Under the pieces are notes generated by a model. It searched no databases. It saw only the letters and a list, made by a program, of their open reading frames with translations, and was not told the origin of the DNA. Of a DNA stretch of 64,000 nt, positions 53,118 to 64,000 are shown piece by piece. Source of the DNA: Methylophilaceae bacterium. GTDB taxonomy: Bacteria > Pseudomonadota > Gammaproteobacteria > Burkholderiales > Methylophilaceae. A program made the translations under genes and the position numbers. Each line of letters starts with the position of its first letter. Within the stretch, counting starts at the first letter, position 1. The DNA is taken from assembly GCA_016778465.1 (NCBI GenBank), contig JADHPM010000001.1, forward strand, positions 124,001 to 188,000. The letters run 5' to 3'.

Positions 53118-53972
53118 TTATGACTCTGATGAGATAAGTAATTTAATTTTACTCATCGCAGCTTGTTCAATCTGTCTAATTCGTTCTGGAGATACTTGGT
53201 GTTCGTCTGCTAAATCATGGAGTGTTTTAGGCTTACCATCAGTTAACCATCGGGCCTCAATTATGGCTCGACTTCTTGCATCCAATTTTTTAAGTGCTAA
53301 TTGCAGACTGACGGAAGAATTTGATTCATCCTCCTCTGCAGATAACTTATCAGATGGCCCAGGTGCATCATCCTTTAAGTAAGAAATAGGTCGAAATTGA
53401 TCCTCATCATGATCATCATCAGAATAATCTATGGCAATTTCTTGGCCGGAAAAACGATATTCCATTTCTTTAACTTCATCTTCTCTAACATTTAACTCTT
53501 TAGCTATTGCTTCAATTTCATCTGATCTTAAGGGTTTAAGTGTTTTTTTAAGGCTTCTTAAATTAAAAAAAAGCTTTCGCTGCGCCTTAGTTGTGGCAGT
53601 TTTTACCAAACGCCAGTTCTTTACAACATATTCTTGTATCTCTGCTTTTATCCAATAGATGGCAAACGAAACAAGCCGAACCCCTCTTTCAGGGTCAAAT
53701 CTTTTGACAGCCTTCATTAGGCCAATATTACCTTCTTGAACAAGGTCGGCATGAGGGAGATTATAACCGCTGTATGAGCGAGCAATTTTGATGACTAACT
53801 TTAAGTGGGATAAGATTAATTGCTTGGCAGCTTCCAGATCATTATTCTTTTTTAACCGCATACCGAGTTCATACTCCTCCTCAGGGGTTAAAGAGGGGAA
53901 TGCATTGATGGTCTGCTGATAAATATTGTAATCATCAGTAGGATTAAAATTTGTTATTGATAAATTATTCAT
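53118..53972 (-). CDS. rpoH: Heat-shock sigma factor RpoH (sigma-32)
   Basis: Directs RNA polymerase to heat-shock promoters. From the ATG at 53970-53972 it has 284 residues, the usual length; a GTG at 53993 is also open but lies inside the CIRCE palindrome. Region 2 contains DLVQEGNIGLMKAVKRFD (about 74-91), the RpoH box QRKLFFNLR is at about 131-139, and region 4 ends with HQVSPERIRQIEQ. It follows ftsX, the conserved ftsYEX-rpoH order. The CIRCE and a probable promoter lie directly upstream. Confidence 0.96.
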   Translation of the reverse strand: MNNLSITNFNPTDDYNIYQQTINAFPSLTPEEEYELGMRLKKNNDLEAAKQLILSHLKLVIKIARSYSGYNLPHADLVQEGNIGLMKAVKRFDPERGVRLVSFAIYWIKAEIQEYVVKNWRLVKTATTKAQRKLFFNLRSLKKTLKPLRSDEIEAIAKELNVREDEVKEMEYRFSGQEIAIDYSDDDHDEDQFRPISYLKDDAPGPSDKLSAEEDESNSSVSLQLALKKLDARSRAIIEARWLTDGKPKTLHDLADEHQVSPERIRQIEQAAMSKIKLLISSES

Positions 53973-53986
53973 ATTTAAATTATATT

Positions 53987-54013
53987 TTAGCACTCATAGC
54001 ATGAGAGTGCTAA
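53987..54013. promoter_or_regulatory. CIRCE operator (HrcA-binding inverted repeat) upstream of rpoH
   Basis: TTAGCACTC - 9 bases - GAGTGCTAA is a perfect match to the CIRCE consensus bound by the heat-shock repressor HrcA. It lies 14 bases before the rpoH ATG and overlaps the predicted transcription start of the promoter at 54016-54044, so HrcA bound here should block rpoH. CIRCE usually marks groESL or hrcA-dnaK operons. hrcA is not in this window. Confidence 0.92.
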
Positions 54014-54015
54014 TT

Positions 54016-54044
54016 TTAATAAAAAGTTTCAAAAAATACAACAA
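54016..54044 (-). promoter_or_regulatory. Candidate rpoH promoter
   Basis: On the minus strand TTGTTG (54039-54044), a 17-bp spacer and TATTAA (54016-54021) place transcription start near 54009, within the CIRCE. The -35 overlaps the last few bases before the ftsX stop. The match is moderate; the position relative to the operator adds weight. Confidence 0.5.
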
Positions 54045-54045
54045 G

Positions 54046-54957
54046 TTAGTAATTTTTTTCTAGTTTATGTATAGCTTGTTTCGCCGCTATATAAGAGGCA
54101 ATCCATCCAGCAAACATTGCGATAATTATTATAAATATTGACTGCTCTACCGAAAAGGTATTGAGTGTGATGTTGCCTCCGATTAAATTTTCAACACGAT
54201 CTGCAACTAAATTAAAAGACACAAGGATAATTTTCAAAATTCCCAGAGTAACAAGACCGCCGCCTAAACCATAAATAAGTCCTGTGTATTCAAAAGGTCT
54301 CTGAATGAAAGCGTTTGTAGCCCCGATTAGACGACTAACTTCAATTTCATTTTGATAAGTAAGTGTTTGCAGTCGGACGGTATTCGTTATCACAACGACG
54401 AGGACAGTAATAAGTAAACAGCCAAGGATAACAATACCAATCTTAATAAGATATAAAATAGATCTTAATTTTTTCACCCAACCACCATCCAGAACAATTT
54501 CTTCGATACCCTCAAGTGCCTTAAGATCGCTAACAAAACTATCAATTTTTTTTGTTTCTAAAGTATTTAAGGAGATAAAAAAAGCATCTGGGAGAGGGTT
54601 TTTTGAAACGCCATCCTCAATTGATGATAGGTTAAGTTGTGCTTGAAGTTTTTCCCAAGCAACAAGTTTAGGCTCGAAATGTATTTTTTTAACTAAGCTA
54701 TTTTTTTTTAATGCAGAATGCAAAAAATCAACTTGTTCAGCCTTAATTTCTTTATCGAGGAATATACTCAATTCAGCTTCGTACTGAATCTTGTTTGAAA
54801 TTTGCGATGCATTCTGAATCAAGAGGAATCCTGTAGTAGGTAAAGAAAGTGTTATCCCAATAACAAGAAACATCATAACGGAGCCAATCCAATTCGCTCT
54901 AATACGAATTAACCCCTGAATAAGTGCATGATAGTGGTTATGTAAGAAGCGGAACAT
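54046..54957 (-). CDS. ftsX: Cell division protein FtsX
   Basis: Permease-like partner of FtsE that activates septal peptidoglycan hydrolases. The 303 residues have an N-terminal membrane helix (about 25-48), a periplasmic domain (about 50-165) and three C-terminal helices (about 172-195, 225-250, 272-293). The ANTVRLQTLTYQNEIEVSRLIGATNAFI-type motif is at about 190-217. The start overlaps ftsE by 20 bases. Confidence 0.95.
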   Translation of the reverse strand: MFRFLHNHYHALIQGLIRIRANWIGSVMMFLVIGITLSLPTTGFLLIQNASQISNKIQYEAELSIFLDKEIKAEQVDFLHSALKKNSLVKKIHFEPKLVAWEKLQAQLNLSSIEDGVSKNPLPDAFFISLNTLETKKIDSFVSDLKALEGIEEIVLDGGWVKKLRSILYLIKIGIVILGCLLITVLVVVITNTVRLQTLTYQNEIEVSRLIGATNAFIQRPFEYTGLIYGLGGGLVTLGILKIILVSFNLVADRVENLIGGNITLNTFSVEQSIFIIIIAMFAGWIASYIAAKQAIHKLEKNY

Positions 54958-55603
54958 TATTGAGGCTACCTTTGGAGATATGAAGTTCTTTGTATTTCAT
55001 TTTTGTTGGAGGTATTTCGTGGCTTGAAATAATTACAGTAACGCCTACTTGCTGGAAACTGTAAAAAATATTCATTATTTCGTCTGCATACCCACGATCT
55101 AAGTTAGCTGTAGGCTCATCTGCAATTAAAACTGAAGGTCTTGAAACGATTGCTCTTGCAATTGCCAGCCTTTGTTGTTCACCTCCAGAGAGGGTGATAG
55201 GCATAAGCTTTTCTTTTTCAAGTAAGCCGACTTTGTTTAGTGCCGCTCTTACGCGTCGCCCTATATCCGAAGGATCACTATCATTAATTGCAAGTGGTAG
55301 TAAGACATTATCAAAACAAGTCCTATCATATAGCAACTTATGATCTTGGAAGATCATACCAAATTTTCTTCGCAGAAACGGCATTTCATTTTTTTTTAGG
55401 TAACTTAGATTTTGATTTTCAAAAAAGATAGTTCCGGAGGTTGGTTTTTCGACAGCTGAAATTAATTTTAATAAAGTTGATTTTCCAGCACCAGATGAAC
55501 CTGTAACAAAAACTAATTCTCCGGCGTTAATTGCAAGAGAAATATCTTGTAGCACATCCATCTCACCGGGATATCTCTTATAAACGTTTGTAAATTTAAT
55601 CAC
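54938..55603 (-). CDS. ftsE: Cell division ATP-binding protein FtsE
   Basis: ABC-type ATPase of the FtsEX complex. The 221 residues have Walker A GSSGAGKSTLLKLI (about 35-48), the Q loop GMIFQDHKLLYDR (about 82-94), signature LSGGEQQRLAIARAI (about 138-152) and Walker B VLIADEPTANLD (about 157-168). It overlaps ftsY by 4 bases and ftsX by 20. Confidence 0.97.
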   Translation of the reverse strand: MIKFTNVYKRYPGEMDVLQDISLAINAGELVFVTGSSGAGKSTLLKLISAVEKPTSGTIFFENQNLSYLKKNEMPFLRRKFGMIFQDHKLLYDRTCFDNVLLPLAINDSDPSDIGRRVRAALNKVGLLEKEKLMPITLSGGEQQRLAIARAIVSRPSVLIADEPTANLDRGYADEIMNIFYSFQQVGVTVIISSHEIPPTKMKYKELHISKGSLNNVPLLT

Positions 55604-56742
55604 TCAAACATGGCCTCAACATAATCTTCTGCTGAAAACACCTTTAAGTCATCAATTCCCTCGCCAAGTCCAATGAATCGAATAGGTGTGGGAAGCTCTT
55701 TTGCAATGGCGGCGACTATACCGCCTTTGGCAGTTCCATCTAGTTTAGTAATAATCAAACCAGTGACCCCTAAAGCTTCATTAAAAACTTTGAGTTGATT
55801 TATTGCATTTTGCCCAGTATTTGCATCAATAACCAACAAAATTTCTTGTGGACCAGGTTGATGGCATTTGGTTATAACTCTTTTTATTTTTGTAATTTCA
55901 TCAATTAGATTTTTTTGTGTTGGAAGTCTCCCAGCCGTATCGGCAATAACAACATTTATTTTTTTTGCTTTAGCTGAATTAACTGCATCAAAAATAACCG
56001 CACTTGGATCACCCTTTTTTTGAGCGATAACAGAAACTTGATTTCGATCACCCCAAACCGAAAGCTGTTCCGATGCGGCAGCACGAAAAGTATCACCTGC
56101 AGCGATAAGGACTGTTTTGTTATCTTCAAGCAATAATTTTGTTAACTTCCCAATGGTGGTTGTTTTACCAGTTCCATTAACCCCAACCATCATAATAATA
56201 AAAGGATGGTTACCCGCGATTTGTAAAGGTGACTCGATTGTCTTAAGAAGTGTAATTAGTTCACTTTTTAAAATATCTTTTAATTGGCTAGGTTCTTGAA
56301 GCCCATCTTTTTTTACCTTATCTTTTACTTGTGAGATTAGCATTTCAGTAGCGTTAATTCCAACATCTGCTGTTAATAAAATCATTTCAAGTTCGTCGTA
56401 GAAAGTGTCATCAATTTTATTGCCAGTGAAGAGATGAGTGAGTTGAGAATTTAATTTTTCTCTGGTCTTAGCTAATCCAGATTGAATCTTTGCAGCAAAT
56501 GAAAAAAAACCTTTTTTTTCATTTTTTTGATTACCACTATCTTTTGCTATTTGATCCGCATAAGTTTTCGGTGCTTTAGGTTTCGCCGGTGCTTTAGGTT
56601 TCGCCGGTGCTTTAGGTTTCGCCGGTGCTTTAGGTTTCGCCGGTGCTTTAGGTTTCGCCGGTGCTTTAGGTTTCGCCGGTGCTTTAGGTTTCGCCGGTGC
56701 TTTAGGATCTTTCTTAATTAATTTTTTTAAAAAATCAAACAT
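55600..56742 (-). CDS. ftsY: Signal recognition particle receptor FtsY with repeat-rich N-terminus
   Basis: SRP receptor GTPase that docks ribosome-nascent-chain complexes at the membrane. The 380 residues have an N-terminal linker of seven perfect PKAPAK-type hexapeptide repeats plus one partial (about residues 12-59), then the NG domain: [14 protein letters not shown] (about 188-201), DTAGRLPTQ (about 272-280) and [10 protein letters not shown] (about 333-342). E. coli has an acidic A domain where this basic Pro/Ala/Lys linker lies. It heads the ftsY-ftsE-ftsX unit. Confidence 0.96.
56570..56706. repeat. 18-bp perfect tandem repeat inside ftsY
   Basis: The unit GGTGCTTTAGGTTTCGCC occurs seven times without a mismatch, followed by an 11-base partial copy. 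It encodes the hexapeptide PKAPAK on the minus strand. The unit length keeps the frame, so copy-number change would only lengthen or shorten the FtsY linker. The perfect identity at the DNA level, including wobble bases, indicates recent expansion. Confidence 0.97.
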
Positions 56743-60739: not shown

Positions 60740-61129
60740 ATGAGAATTTTGCATACAATGTTGCGTGTCAACAATCTTGAGCAATCAATAAATTTTTATA
60801 AAAATTTTTTTGGCATGAATTTATTAAGACAGCATGATTATCCTGATGGCAAATTTTCACTAGCTTTTATTGGTTATGGCTCGGAAGCATCAGACACTGT
60901 TATTGAATTGACTCATAATTGGGAAACTGAAAGTTACGAGCACGGGGCAGCGTTTGGACACATCGCTATTGAGGTTGATGACGCTTATAAAACATGTAAG
61001 GAAATTAAAGCCAAAGGAGGCAAAGTTCTTAGGGAGGCCGGTCCAATGATGCATGGTTCGACTATTATTGCCTTTATTGAGGACCCGAACGGCTATAAAA
61101 TTGAATTAATCCAAAAAGGGACTTTTTAA
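60740..61129 (+). CDS. gloA: Lactoylglutathione lyase (glyoxalase I)
   Basis: Converts the methylglyoxal-glutathione hemithioacetal to S-lactoylglutathione. The 129 residues are close to E. coli GloA throughout. The metal ligands are His5, Glu56, His74-equivalent in FGHIAIEV, and Glu122 in YKIELI. AAAGGA lies 7-8 bases before the ATG. Its TAA shares TTAA (61126-61129) with the dnaJ stop. Confidence 0.96.
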
Positions 61130-62250
61130 TCAAAAAACTCTTTGACCTTATCTAGCCAGCCTTTTGATCTAGGGCTATGCTTACTTTGGTTTTTCTGATT
61201 TAGAGCCTCTATTTCTTCAAACAATTTTTTTTGATTATCATTTAGATTAACCGGTGTCTCTACTACAATGTGACAATGTAAGTCTCCATTTTGGCTTTCT
61301 CTTACTGGTTTTATTCCCTTTCCTCGTAGCCTAAAAACCGCACCAGTTTGTGTTCCAGCAGGAATTTTTATTTTAGCTGTTCCATCTAATGTTGGAACCT
61401 TAATTTCACCGCCTAGAGCTGCTATTGTTATACTTACAGGCATTTCACAATGCAAGTTACCACCATCACGTTCAAACAACTCATGAGATTTCATGCTAAT
61501 GACGACATAAAGATCTCCTGATGGCCCACCATTTAATCCAGCCTCACCTTCGCCGCTTAATCTTATTCGATCCCCTTCATCGACACCCGCAGGAATTTTA
61601 ACCGACAAAGTTTTGGATTCCTTAATGCGACCTGAGCCATTACAATCACCACAAGGGTCCTTAATTACCTTTCCTGAGCCTTGGCAATCGGGACATGTTT
61701 GCTGAACAGAAAAAAAACCTTGTTGCATTCTGACTTGTCCATGACCCTGGCATGTTCCGCAGGTTGATGGTTGGGTACCTTTTTTTGCACCCGACCCTGA
61801 GCATGTTTTACAACCAACCATAACGGGTATTTTGATTTTGGTTTCAGTTCCTTTGAAAGCCTGTTCGAGACTAATTGCCATGTTATATCTGAGGTCAGCC
61901 CCACGATAAACATTGGATTTATTATTTGACCGACCGCCTCCAAAAATATCTCCAAAAATATCTCCAAACGCGTCACCAAAATCAGAAAAATCACCAAAAC
62001 CTGAGCCCCCACCCATATTTTGATTTACGCCCGCATGGCCAAATTGATCATAGGCAGCTTTTTTTTGCGGATCTGAGAGAATATCGTAAGCTTCTTTAGC
62101 TTCTTTGAACTGCTCCTCAGCTTTGGGGTTATCTGGATTTCGATCTGGATGAAACTTCATTGCAAGCTTTTTAAAAGCTTTTTTTATTTCTTCGTTGGAT
62201 GCATCTCGGCCGAGGCCGAGTATCTCGTAGTAGTCTCTATTCGTTGCCAT
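61126..62250 (-). CDS. dnaJ: Chaperone DnaJ
   Basis: Hsp40 co-chaperone that delivers substrates to DnaK and stimulates its ATPase. From the ATG at 62248-62250 it has 374 residues; an in-frame start at 62280 lies in a hairpin and is unlikely. It has the J domain with HPD (KFHPDRNP, about 32), the Gly/Phe region (about 77-110), four CxxCxGxG-type zinc repeats (about 142-205; the first is CKTCSGSG, the last CGDCNGSG) and the C-terminal domains. It follows dnaK by 38 bases. Confidence 0.97.
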
Positions 62251-62259
62251 AAGAAATAT

Positions 62260-62281
62260 CATGGAGCCTTTTGGCCCCATG
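62260..62281 (-). promoter_or_regulatory. Hairpin between dnaK and dnaJ
   Basis: On the minus strand CATGGGGCC-AAAA-GGCTCCATG forms a 9-bp stem (one G-T pair) with a 4-base loop, 9 bases before the dnaJ ATG and 7 bases after the dnaK stop. There is no U-run after it, so it is more likely an mRNA processing, stability or translation-tuning element than a terminator. Confidence 0.6.
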
Positions 62282-62288
62282 ATCTTGG

Positions 62289-64000
62289 TTATTTATCGGA
62301 TTTACCTTCAGTTTTTGTTTCTTGATCGTCTTTCACTTCTTCAAAATCTGCATCAACTACTTCCGCATCAACAGTTTTTTCTTGTTTGTCTCCCTTTTCA
62401 GAGCCTGCGGCATTTTGCTGTGCTTGTTGCTCAGCATATACTTTTTCTCCGAGTTTTTGCGATGATTCTGCCAAAGCTTTATTTTTGGCTTCAATTTCAT
62501 CTTTACTATTTGATTTGATTGCCTCTTGCAGGTCTTTTATTGATGCTTCAATTTTCTCTTTCTCAGCTTTATCGAGTTTATCTCCATGATCTTTCATTGA
62601 TTTCTCAACAGAATGAATCATAGCTTCTGCCATATTTTTTGCATCAACTAATTCTTTAAGCTTTTTATCTTCTTCTGCGAATCGCTCTGCATCCTCTTCC
62701 ATTTTTTTAATTTCCTCATCTGATAAGCCACCGTTCGCCTTGATCGTAATTTTATTTTCTTTACCAGTGGCTTTATCTTTTGCATTTACGTGCAATATAC
62801 CGTTCGCATCGATATCAAAAGACACTTCGATTTGGGGTGTGCCTCGAGGTGCAGCAGGGATATCTGTTAAATTAAATTGTCCAAGGCTCTTGTTTCCTGT
62901 TGCCATTTCTCTTTCACCTTGTAAAACGTGAATGGTTACTGCGTTTTGATTATCTTCTGCAGTAGAGAACACTTGAGACGCTTTGGTTGGAATAGTCGTA
63001 TTCTTTTTAATTAACTTGGTCATTACACCTCCAAGTGTCTCAATACCAAGGCTCAAGGGCGTAACATCGAGCAGAAGGACATCTTTTACATCACCTTGCA
63101 AAACACCACCTTGAACCGCTGCACCAATTGCCACGGCCTCATCGGGATTAATATCTTTGCGAGCTTCAACACCAAATATTTCTTTAACTTTTTCTTGTAC
63201 TTTTGGCATTCTAGTTTGACCGCCGACAAGGATTACATCAGATATTTCAGATGCCGATAACCCAGAGTCCTTAATTGCCGTTTGACATGGGGCAACGGTT
63301 CTCTCGATTAATTCATCCACAAGAGACTCTAATTTTGCGCGAGTTAGCTTAACAACTAAGTGTTTAGGGCCAGATGCATCTGCAGTAATGTAAGGTAAGT
63401 TTATTTCAGTTTGTGTGCTACTCGATAATTCAATTTTAGCTTTTTCTGCAGCCTCTTTAAGTCTTTGTTTGGCCAGCATATCTTTTGTGAGATCTACACT
63501 GTTTTCTTTTTTAAATTCCTCTGCAAGAAAGTCAATAATTCGATTATCAAAATCTTCACCACCTAAAAAGGTATCGCCATTGGTTGATAAAACCTCAAAT
63601 TGATGCTCACCATCAACGCTACTAATTTCAATGATAGAAATATCAAATGTACCGCCACCAAGATCATAAACTGCAATTTTTCTATCACCTTCTTTTTTAT
63701 CCAAACCGAAGGCTAATGCAGCAGCAGTAGGTTCATTGATAATTCTTTTAACATCAAGACCTGCAATGCGGCCTGCATCTTTGGTTGCTTGTCGTTGACT
63801 GTCATTAAAATACGCAGGAACTGTAATTACAGCTTCTGTAACCTTTTCTCCCAAATAGTCTTCAGCAGTCTTTTTCATCTTTCGGAGAATTTCAGCCGAA
63901 ATTTGTGGAGGAGCCATTTTTTCACCCTTGACTTCAACCCAGGCATCTCCGTTATCTGCTTTAGTAATTGTGTATGGCATGAGGTCGATATCTTTTTGCA
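62289..64000 (-). CDS. dnaK: Chaperone DnaK, 5' part cut by window edge
   Basis: Hsp70 chaperone. About 570 residues are visible; the frame is open to the right edge, with [11 protein letters not shown] at the edge, so roughly 80 N-terminal residues are missing. Motifs: [20 protein letters not shown] (Hsp70 signature region), [27 protein letters not shown], and the substrate domain with [13 protein letters not shown]. The C-terminus has the EEVKDD motif followed by 11 extra polar residues ([11 protein letters not shown]). dnaJ follows. Upstream regulation is outside the window. Confidence 0.98.

Follow-up and report, generated by a model that had tools for sequence, protein, structure and literature searches.

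A CIRCE palindrome conserved upstream of rpoH in a Methylophilaceae bacterium and its relatives overlaps candidate sigma-E and extended -10 promoter elements

Introduction

In Bacillus and other bacteria, GroEL maintains the activity of HrcA. A related arrangement has been described for Geobacter sulfurreducens, where a perfect CIRCE was predicted upstream of rpoH, as well as upstream of groESL and hrcA-grpE-dnaKJ (Rodionov et al. 2004, PMC545781). Transcription of rpoH by sigma-E has been described in two other systems: in Bordetella bronchiseptica, SigE transcribes in vitro the promoter of rpoH (fam), located just upstream of the gene, and the P3 promoter of Escherichia coli rpoH is reported in the same paper to be sigma-E dependent (PMC3490749). 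Here we examine the rpoH locus in a stretch of 64,000 nucleotides (hereafter, the window) from a Methylophilaceae genome of 1.24 Mb and 99% completeness, in which a perfect CIRCE overlaps candidate elements of two promoters.

Materials and methods

Upstream regions were compared in several sets. The named set comprises the best 80 of 586 confirmed rpoH loci. The order set derives from 61 genomes (the source genome, 30 from its genus, 6 from its family and 24 from its order), six of which (G002, G004, G009, G025, G028 and G042) were left out for want of an RpoH above the cut-off, giving 55 regions; in G021, RpoH is a contig-end fragment that scores below the cut-off. The class sample comprises 149 genomes, including the source genome, and its table was obtained by matching by hand the full list of HrcA-positive genomes to the CIRCE matches. 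The 31 class genomes used for site-by-site analysis are those among the matches listed, of 110 with CIRCE, and constitute a non-random draw. Motif counts exclude regions without a CIRCE at four or fewer mismatches, amounting to 5 of 80 in the named set, 2 of 55 in the order set (G055 and G029, leaving 53), 1 of 40 in the groES set (G055, leaving 39) and 3 of 31 regions in the class set (G194, G084 and the second rpoH of G090, leaving 28). The named set and the genome sets overlap in part (L004 resembles both G008 and G020), and sequences from relatives are non-independent. Sigma-E promoters were scanned for as GGAACTT-N16/17-TCnnA, with at most one mismatch in the -35. The GGAACTT and TCnnA elements are a simplification of the published consensus, GAACTT-16/17-TCCAAA, which has the same spacing and -35 as the scanned motif (PMC4336711).

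Results

The rpoH gene, encoding the sigma-32 heat-shock sigma factor, lies on the minus strand at 53118-53972 (TIGR02392, 375.9 bits; cut-off, 323.1), with its ATG at 53972-53970. Within the best 80 of 586 named loci, its closest RpoH matches are from Methylophilaceae, such as Methylopumilus (69% identity). The product contains the sequence QRKLFFNLR, which we take to be an intact RpoH box, so that chaperone and protease control of the RpoH protein may remain. The initial annotation had claimed a perfect CIRCE before this gene, and the scan bears this out: TTAGCACTC-N9-GAGTGCTAA is found at 53987-54013 on the minus strand, with no mismatches and 14 bases from the ATG. We annotate it as a putative HrcA operator on the basis of its perfect match to the consensus and its conservation before rpoH. 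No other site in the window matches with three or fewer mismatches; shuffled windows average 0.03 at that threshold, and a perfect CIRCE is expected by chance, given base composition, 1.5e-5 times per whole genome. The complete source genome contains two CIRCE at up to three mismatches, before rpoH and groES, each without mismatches, and a reversed-pattern control run at this threshold yields one match. The groES CIRCE begins 83 bases 5' of the groES match, which is followed by a groEL-like open reading frame.

The 5' neighbor of rpoH on the same strand is ftsX (54046-54957, minus strand; TIGR00439, 231.7 bits, below the cut-off of 255), and the minus-strand gene order is ftsY, ftsE, ftsX and rpoH, with ftsY and ftsE named from reading of the open reading frames. 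It is possible that transcription from ftsX reads through into rpoH. The FtsY-like open reading frame (55600-56742, minus strand), named in the same way, carries a long KAPAKP repeat close to its N-terminus. No clear Shine-Dalgarno sequence is apparent by eye at 53972-53992, upstream of rpoH.

The presence of hrcA, which the initial annotation had listed as a check on its reading, is confirmed in the source genome (PF01628, 212.4 bits; 211.5 bits in a second profile search), with the DNA-binding domain of the product giving a match to PF03444 over residues 4-74 that, at 20.8 bits, falls just short of the cut-off of 21. Its upstream region contains neither a CIRCE nor a sigma-32-type promoter at up to four mismatches. 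The window also encodes dnaJ and a 5'-truncated dnaK (61126-63998, minus strand; both named from open reading frames), with grpE, identified by Pfam, lying just past the right edge of the window; the three genes are assumed to form a single operon. No CIRCE was found upstream of grpE (best match, eight mismatches), and the gene is preceded by a perfect sigma-32-type sequence, CTTGAA-N14-CCCCAT. A sigma-32-type sequence with one mismatch precedes groES. A promoter of this type was also considered for rpoH and rejected, as none is present there at up to three mismatches. The genome encodes rpoE as well (TIGR02939, 300.5 bits; cut-off, 236.15).

A second check set by the initial annotation, the presence of the palindrome in related genomes, revealed conservation in close and distant relatives alike. 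CIRCE with at most two mismatches precedes rpoH in 75 of the 80 named loci (the best 80 of 586), the five loci without it belonging to Halomonas, Salinicola and Vreelandella, and in 52 of the 55 order-level regions, the source region included; the remaining three have a site with four mismatches, a site with five and none, respectively. Across the 61 genomes of this level, CIRCE and HrcA are each detected in 58, with CIRCE absent in G025, G042 and G055, and HrcA absent in G022, G028 and G055. Four of these genomes (G022, G025, G028 and G042) are rated 61 to 81% complete, and G055 is rated 100% complete. In G055, which keeps rpoH and groES, there is no match for HrcA, for CIRCE at either gene or for RpoE, a pattern suggestive of natural loss of the HrcA/CIRCE/RpoE layer in its entirety. 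In G045 (C2:225133 upstream region, L131), the rpoH CIRCE has four mismatches and the groES CIRCE one, and no RpoE scores over the cut-off.

At the class level, CIRCE and HrcA were each detected in 110 of the 149 genomes. Both are present in 106 and neither in 35, with eight discordant genomes divided equally between HrcA alone and CIRCE alone (four each); the two thus co-occur (Fisher P = 4e-25, uncorrected for relatedness), and the reversed-pattern control matched in a single genome (G101). Among the 31 class genomes drawn from the matches listed, CIRCE precedes rpoH in 28 of the 30 genomes with rpoH, groES in 30 of 31, and hrcA in 14 of the 30 having hrcA (for instance, G175, G162 and G084, which thus differ from the source genome in carrying a third site). 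These three genes account for 72 of the 73 CIRCE sites in these genomes (28, 30 and 14 sites, respectively), and the one left over lies in G139, where no rpoH was found. Judged from these predicted sites, rpoH is nearly as constant a target of HrcA as groES, and a more constant one than hrcA, in the 31-genome class set. One genome, G090, has two rpoH genes over the cut-off (C325:258-1058 and C289:38617-39417), with a CIRCE upstream of just one of them in the stretch read.

Scanning of the flanking sequence identified a sigma-E-type motif overlapping the palindrome. The rpoH upstream region reads GAAACTT-N17-TCTCA on the minus strand, combining a putative -35 (54024-54030) with one mismatch to GGAACTT and, after a spacer of 17 that falls within the spacer peak described below, a putative -10 (54002-54006) located inside CIRCE, at its positions 8-12. 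With at most one mismatch, the motif accompanies the rpoH CIRCE in 40 of 75 named sites (from the best 80 of 586), 26 of 53 order sites and 18 of 28 class sites (31 genomes among the matches listed), and none of the 39 groES sites, with shuffled flanks averaging 0.08 to 0.23. Even at two mismatches it is absent from 27 of 75, 23 of 53 and 7 of 28 sites in the same three rpoH sets. When spacers of 8 to 25 were tested on the pooled rpoH sets, matches concentrated at 16 (56 matches) and 17 (28), followed by 18 (6), with 0 to 2 at every other length. The -10 begins inside CIRCE in 29 of 40 named (best 80 of 586), 26 of 26 order and 15 of 18 class sites (among the matches listed), and the others lie upstream of it, mostly within ten bases, apart from one outlier at -20 and another at -35. 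Since the -10 is made up in part of CIRCE letters, most of the weight of the test falls on the -35 and the spacer length. The position of the -10 appears to shift with that of the -35: TC occupies CIRCE positions 10-11 in 11 of 11 sites where the AAC of the -35 begins at -12 or -13 from CIRCE, in 21 of 72 with an AAC beginning at -14 to -17 and in neither of the two at -9 or -10, as if the spacing were being preserved. The bare core GAAC or GAAAC is found near 38 of 75 named (best 80 of 586) and 43 of 53 order rpoH sites, versus 5 of 39 groES sites. The motif is also present in three of the five Halomonas-type rpoH loci devoid of CIRCE, which suggests that the sigma-E promoter is independent of the presence of CIRCE. 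Twelve named loci from Massilia, Duganella, Janthinobacterium, Herbaspirillum and similar genera (L017, L023, L024, L028, L033, L038, L039, L040, L051, L055, L058 and L068), which we take to be Oxalobacteraceae, lack the sigma-E motif and mostly present, by eye, an ATAG...CTAT inverted repeat some 20-45 bases 5' of CIRCE, possibly the site of another regulator.

Elements of housekeeping type are present at the same locus. The right arm of CIRCE, extended by AAT, forms a putative extended -10, TGC-TAAAAT (53984-53992, minus strand), the diagnostic feature of which is AT at CIRCE positions 29-30 (TGCTAAnAT). This dinucleotide is found in 71 of 75 named (best 80 of 586), 45 of 53 order and 20 of 28 class rpoH sites (31 genomes among the matches listed), versus 5 of 39 groES sites, and counting one site per genus leaves 25 of 29 for rpoH versus 5 of 28 for groES. 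Conversely, TTGAA is found 16 to 45 bases 5' of CIRCE at 34 of 39 groES sites. At rpoH, the corresponding counts are 8 of 75 in the named set (best 80 of 586) and 1 of 53 in the order set; the groES sites hence bear a predicted sigma-32-type box. The differing motifs at rpoH and groES suggest that one and the same operator has been placed on a different promoter at each gene. In some members of the genus (G014, G017, G019, G022 and G023), the rpoH ATG lies only six bases past TAAAAT, a gap so short that an extended -10 promoter would there yield a leaderless rpoH mRNA. A possible sigma-70 -35 at the genus level, TTGTAT (54036-54041, minus strand), lies 17 bases from a TAAAAT at 54018-54013; it is a weaker candidate than the sigma-E and extended -10 elements. 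The initial annotation had instead proposed TTGTTG-N17-TATTAA as the promoter. Both hexamers are present (54044-54039 and 54021-54016, minus strand) and 17 bases apart, but the -35 lacks conservation: of 25 same-genus sequences, that of the source genome alone has TTG at the given offset, and 23 have a TTG three bases nearer CIRCE, at the offset of TTGTAT. The exact sigma-70 promoter is therefore unsupported.

Discussion

The presence of hrcA, the conservation of the palindrome and the co-occurrence of CIRCE with hrcA make HrcA control of rpoH the best reading of this locus, and we consider it likely that the palindrome is an HrcA operator acting on an rpoH promoter. That the promoter under this operator is of the sigma-E type appears somewhat more probable than the alternatives to it, judging from motif and spacing. 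Repression of rpoH by HrcA, as put forward in the initial annotation, is hence likely, but not as a peculiarity of this organism, since the arrangement is found in most of the betaproteobacterial and many of the gammaproteobacterial genomes examined. For the source organism, we infer HrcA binding, repression and sigma-E use from sequence comparison, and modulation by GroEL from work on Bacillus and other bacteria. In the unstressed cell, GroEL would keep HrcA active, and HrcA would block RNA polymerase at rpoH, and likewise at groESL; sitting on CIRCE, it would cover both -10 elements, sigma-E and extended, and so stop both promoters. When unfolded protein ties up GroEL, HrcA would become inactive and groESL and rpoH would be released together, after which the RpoH produced would transcribe groESL again, along with the CIRCE-less grpE-dnaK-dnaJ genes. 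Such a circuit would constitute a feed-forward loop with GroEL feedback and, with a sigma-E promoter and an extended -10 housekeeping promoter side by side, rpoH could sense envelope stress and GroEL load jointly.

Several other readings of the locus were weighed against this one. HrcA could be repressing a plain sigma-70 promoter, either the extended -10 TGCTAAAAT or, within the genus, TTGTAT-N17-TAAAAT, with GAACTT persisting as a decaying relic in this lineage; the HrcA part is common to both explanations, which differ in the sigma factor alone. The AT at positions 29-30 is indeed steadier across the named sites (71 of 75, versus 40 of 75 for the sigma-E motif, from the best 80 of 586), TTG is present at -28 in 23 of 25 same-genus sequences, and the -35 of the source genome reads GAAACTT. 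Moreover, the AAC of the -35 is lost in G018 and G010, and some same-genus members keep GAACTT and lack a fitting TCnnA. Set against this is the persistence of GAACTT near the same position, counted by eye, in 14 of the 18 different upstream sequences from the genus, in flanks of 17% G+C, and the retention of rpoE in the source genome. We regard a purely sigma-70 promoter as possible, if doubtful.

The other alternatives bear on the palindrome itself. The initial annotation saw in it a special series wiring of a small genome, acting through TTGTTG-N17-TATTAA and replacing a lost RNA thermosensor. The CIRCE, hrcA and both hexamers are real, and folding at four temperatures from 20 to 42 C predicts a more open start codon region for this rpoH than for that of E. 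coli (unpaired fraction of 0.50-0.67 versus 0.16-0.32), a difference that low G+C alone may explain and that is too weak to speak for or against a thermosensor. The thermosensor claim is, however, unsupported, and a small-genome explanation is contradicted by the generality of the site, which precedes rpoH in genomes ranging from 0.7 to 6.2 Mb, while the proposed -35 is found, within the genus, in the source sequence alone (1 of 25); we deem this account very unlikely. An equally slim chance attaches to the palindrome working mainly as a hairpin in rpoH mRNA, affecting stability or translation, rather than as an HrcA operator. An inverted repeat beside the start codon could conceivably form such a hairpin in transcripts reading through from ftsX, but across the 75 named sites (from the best 80 of 586) it is the letters of the arms that are kept, and not just their pairing, with positions 4-6, 8-9, 20 and 22-26 invariant. 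The presence of CIRCE follows that of hrcA, and transcripts initiated at the predicted starts, inside or beyond the palindrome, would miss the full repeat. With 1.5e-5 perfect matches expected per genome and the site conserved, the probability of a chance palindrome is negligible.

Extending HrcA control of a sigma-E-type rpoH promoter beyond the source genome, we tentatively propose, as a model with a little less than an even chance of being correct, that the core HrcA regulon of HrcA-bearing beta- and gammaproteobacteria comprises groESL and rpoH, that the rpoH operator and a sigma-E promoter form a single fused 45-base element computing "envelope stress and chaperonin shortage", and that E. 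coli is derived, having lost the HrcA layer and kept the sigma-E promoter. If so, the view of two parallel systems, with HrcA in charge of groE and sigma-32 of the rest, would fail for much of the beta/gamma lineage, and HrcA would stand above sigma-32. The DnaK branch, too, would come under the control of GroEL load, which would in addition gate the response to envelope stress, and the E. coli arrangement would be explained as an outcome of HrcA loss, with predictions testable in common laboratory betaproteobacteria. Permina and Gelfand surveyed beta-, gamma- and epsilon-proteobacteria in 2003, and rpoH may well appear there among the targets of HrcA. In the literature searched, mostly outside subscription journals, we recognized no paper that brings together HrcA/CIRCE and a sigma-E promoter at rpoH. 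The HrcA half of the proposal may thus already be in print, and the fused sigma-E/CIRCE element is the part worth testing.

Compared with the systems described to date, the locus shares with Geobacter a CIRCE of the same consensus at rpoH; the Geobacter case is a prediction for one genome, described without mention of a sigma-E promoter in the text examined (PMC545781), and the hrcA and grpE genes of the Methylophilaceae genome differ from their Geobacter counterparts in having no upstream CIRCE. With B. bronchiseptica, likewise a betaproteobacterium, the parallel lies in the sigma factor, HrcA having no occurrences in the main text of that report (PMC3490749). At the locus of another Bordetella included here (L060), the -10 abuts CIRCE, by eye, instead of lying inside it as in the source rpoH. 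The rpoH gene of E. coli, which is not among the HrcA-positive control genomes, has no CIRCE upstream (best match, eight mismatches), and the same sigma-E rule finds its P3 promoter as TGAACTT-N16-TCTGA, with a geometry like that of the element in the Methylophilaceae genome.
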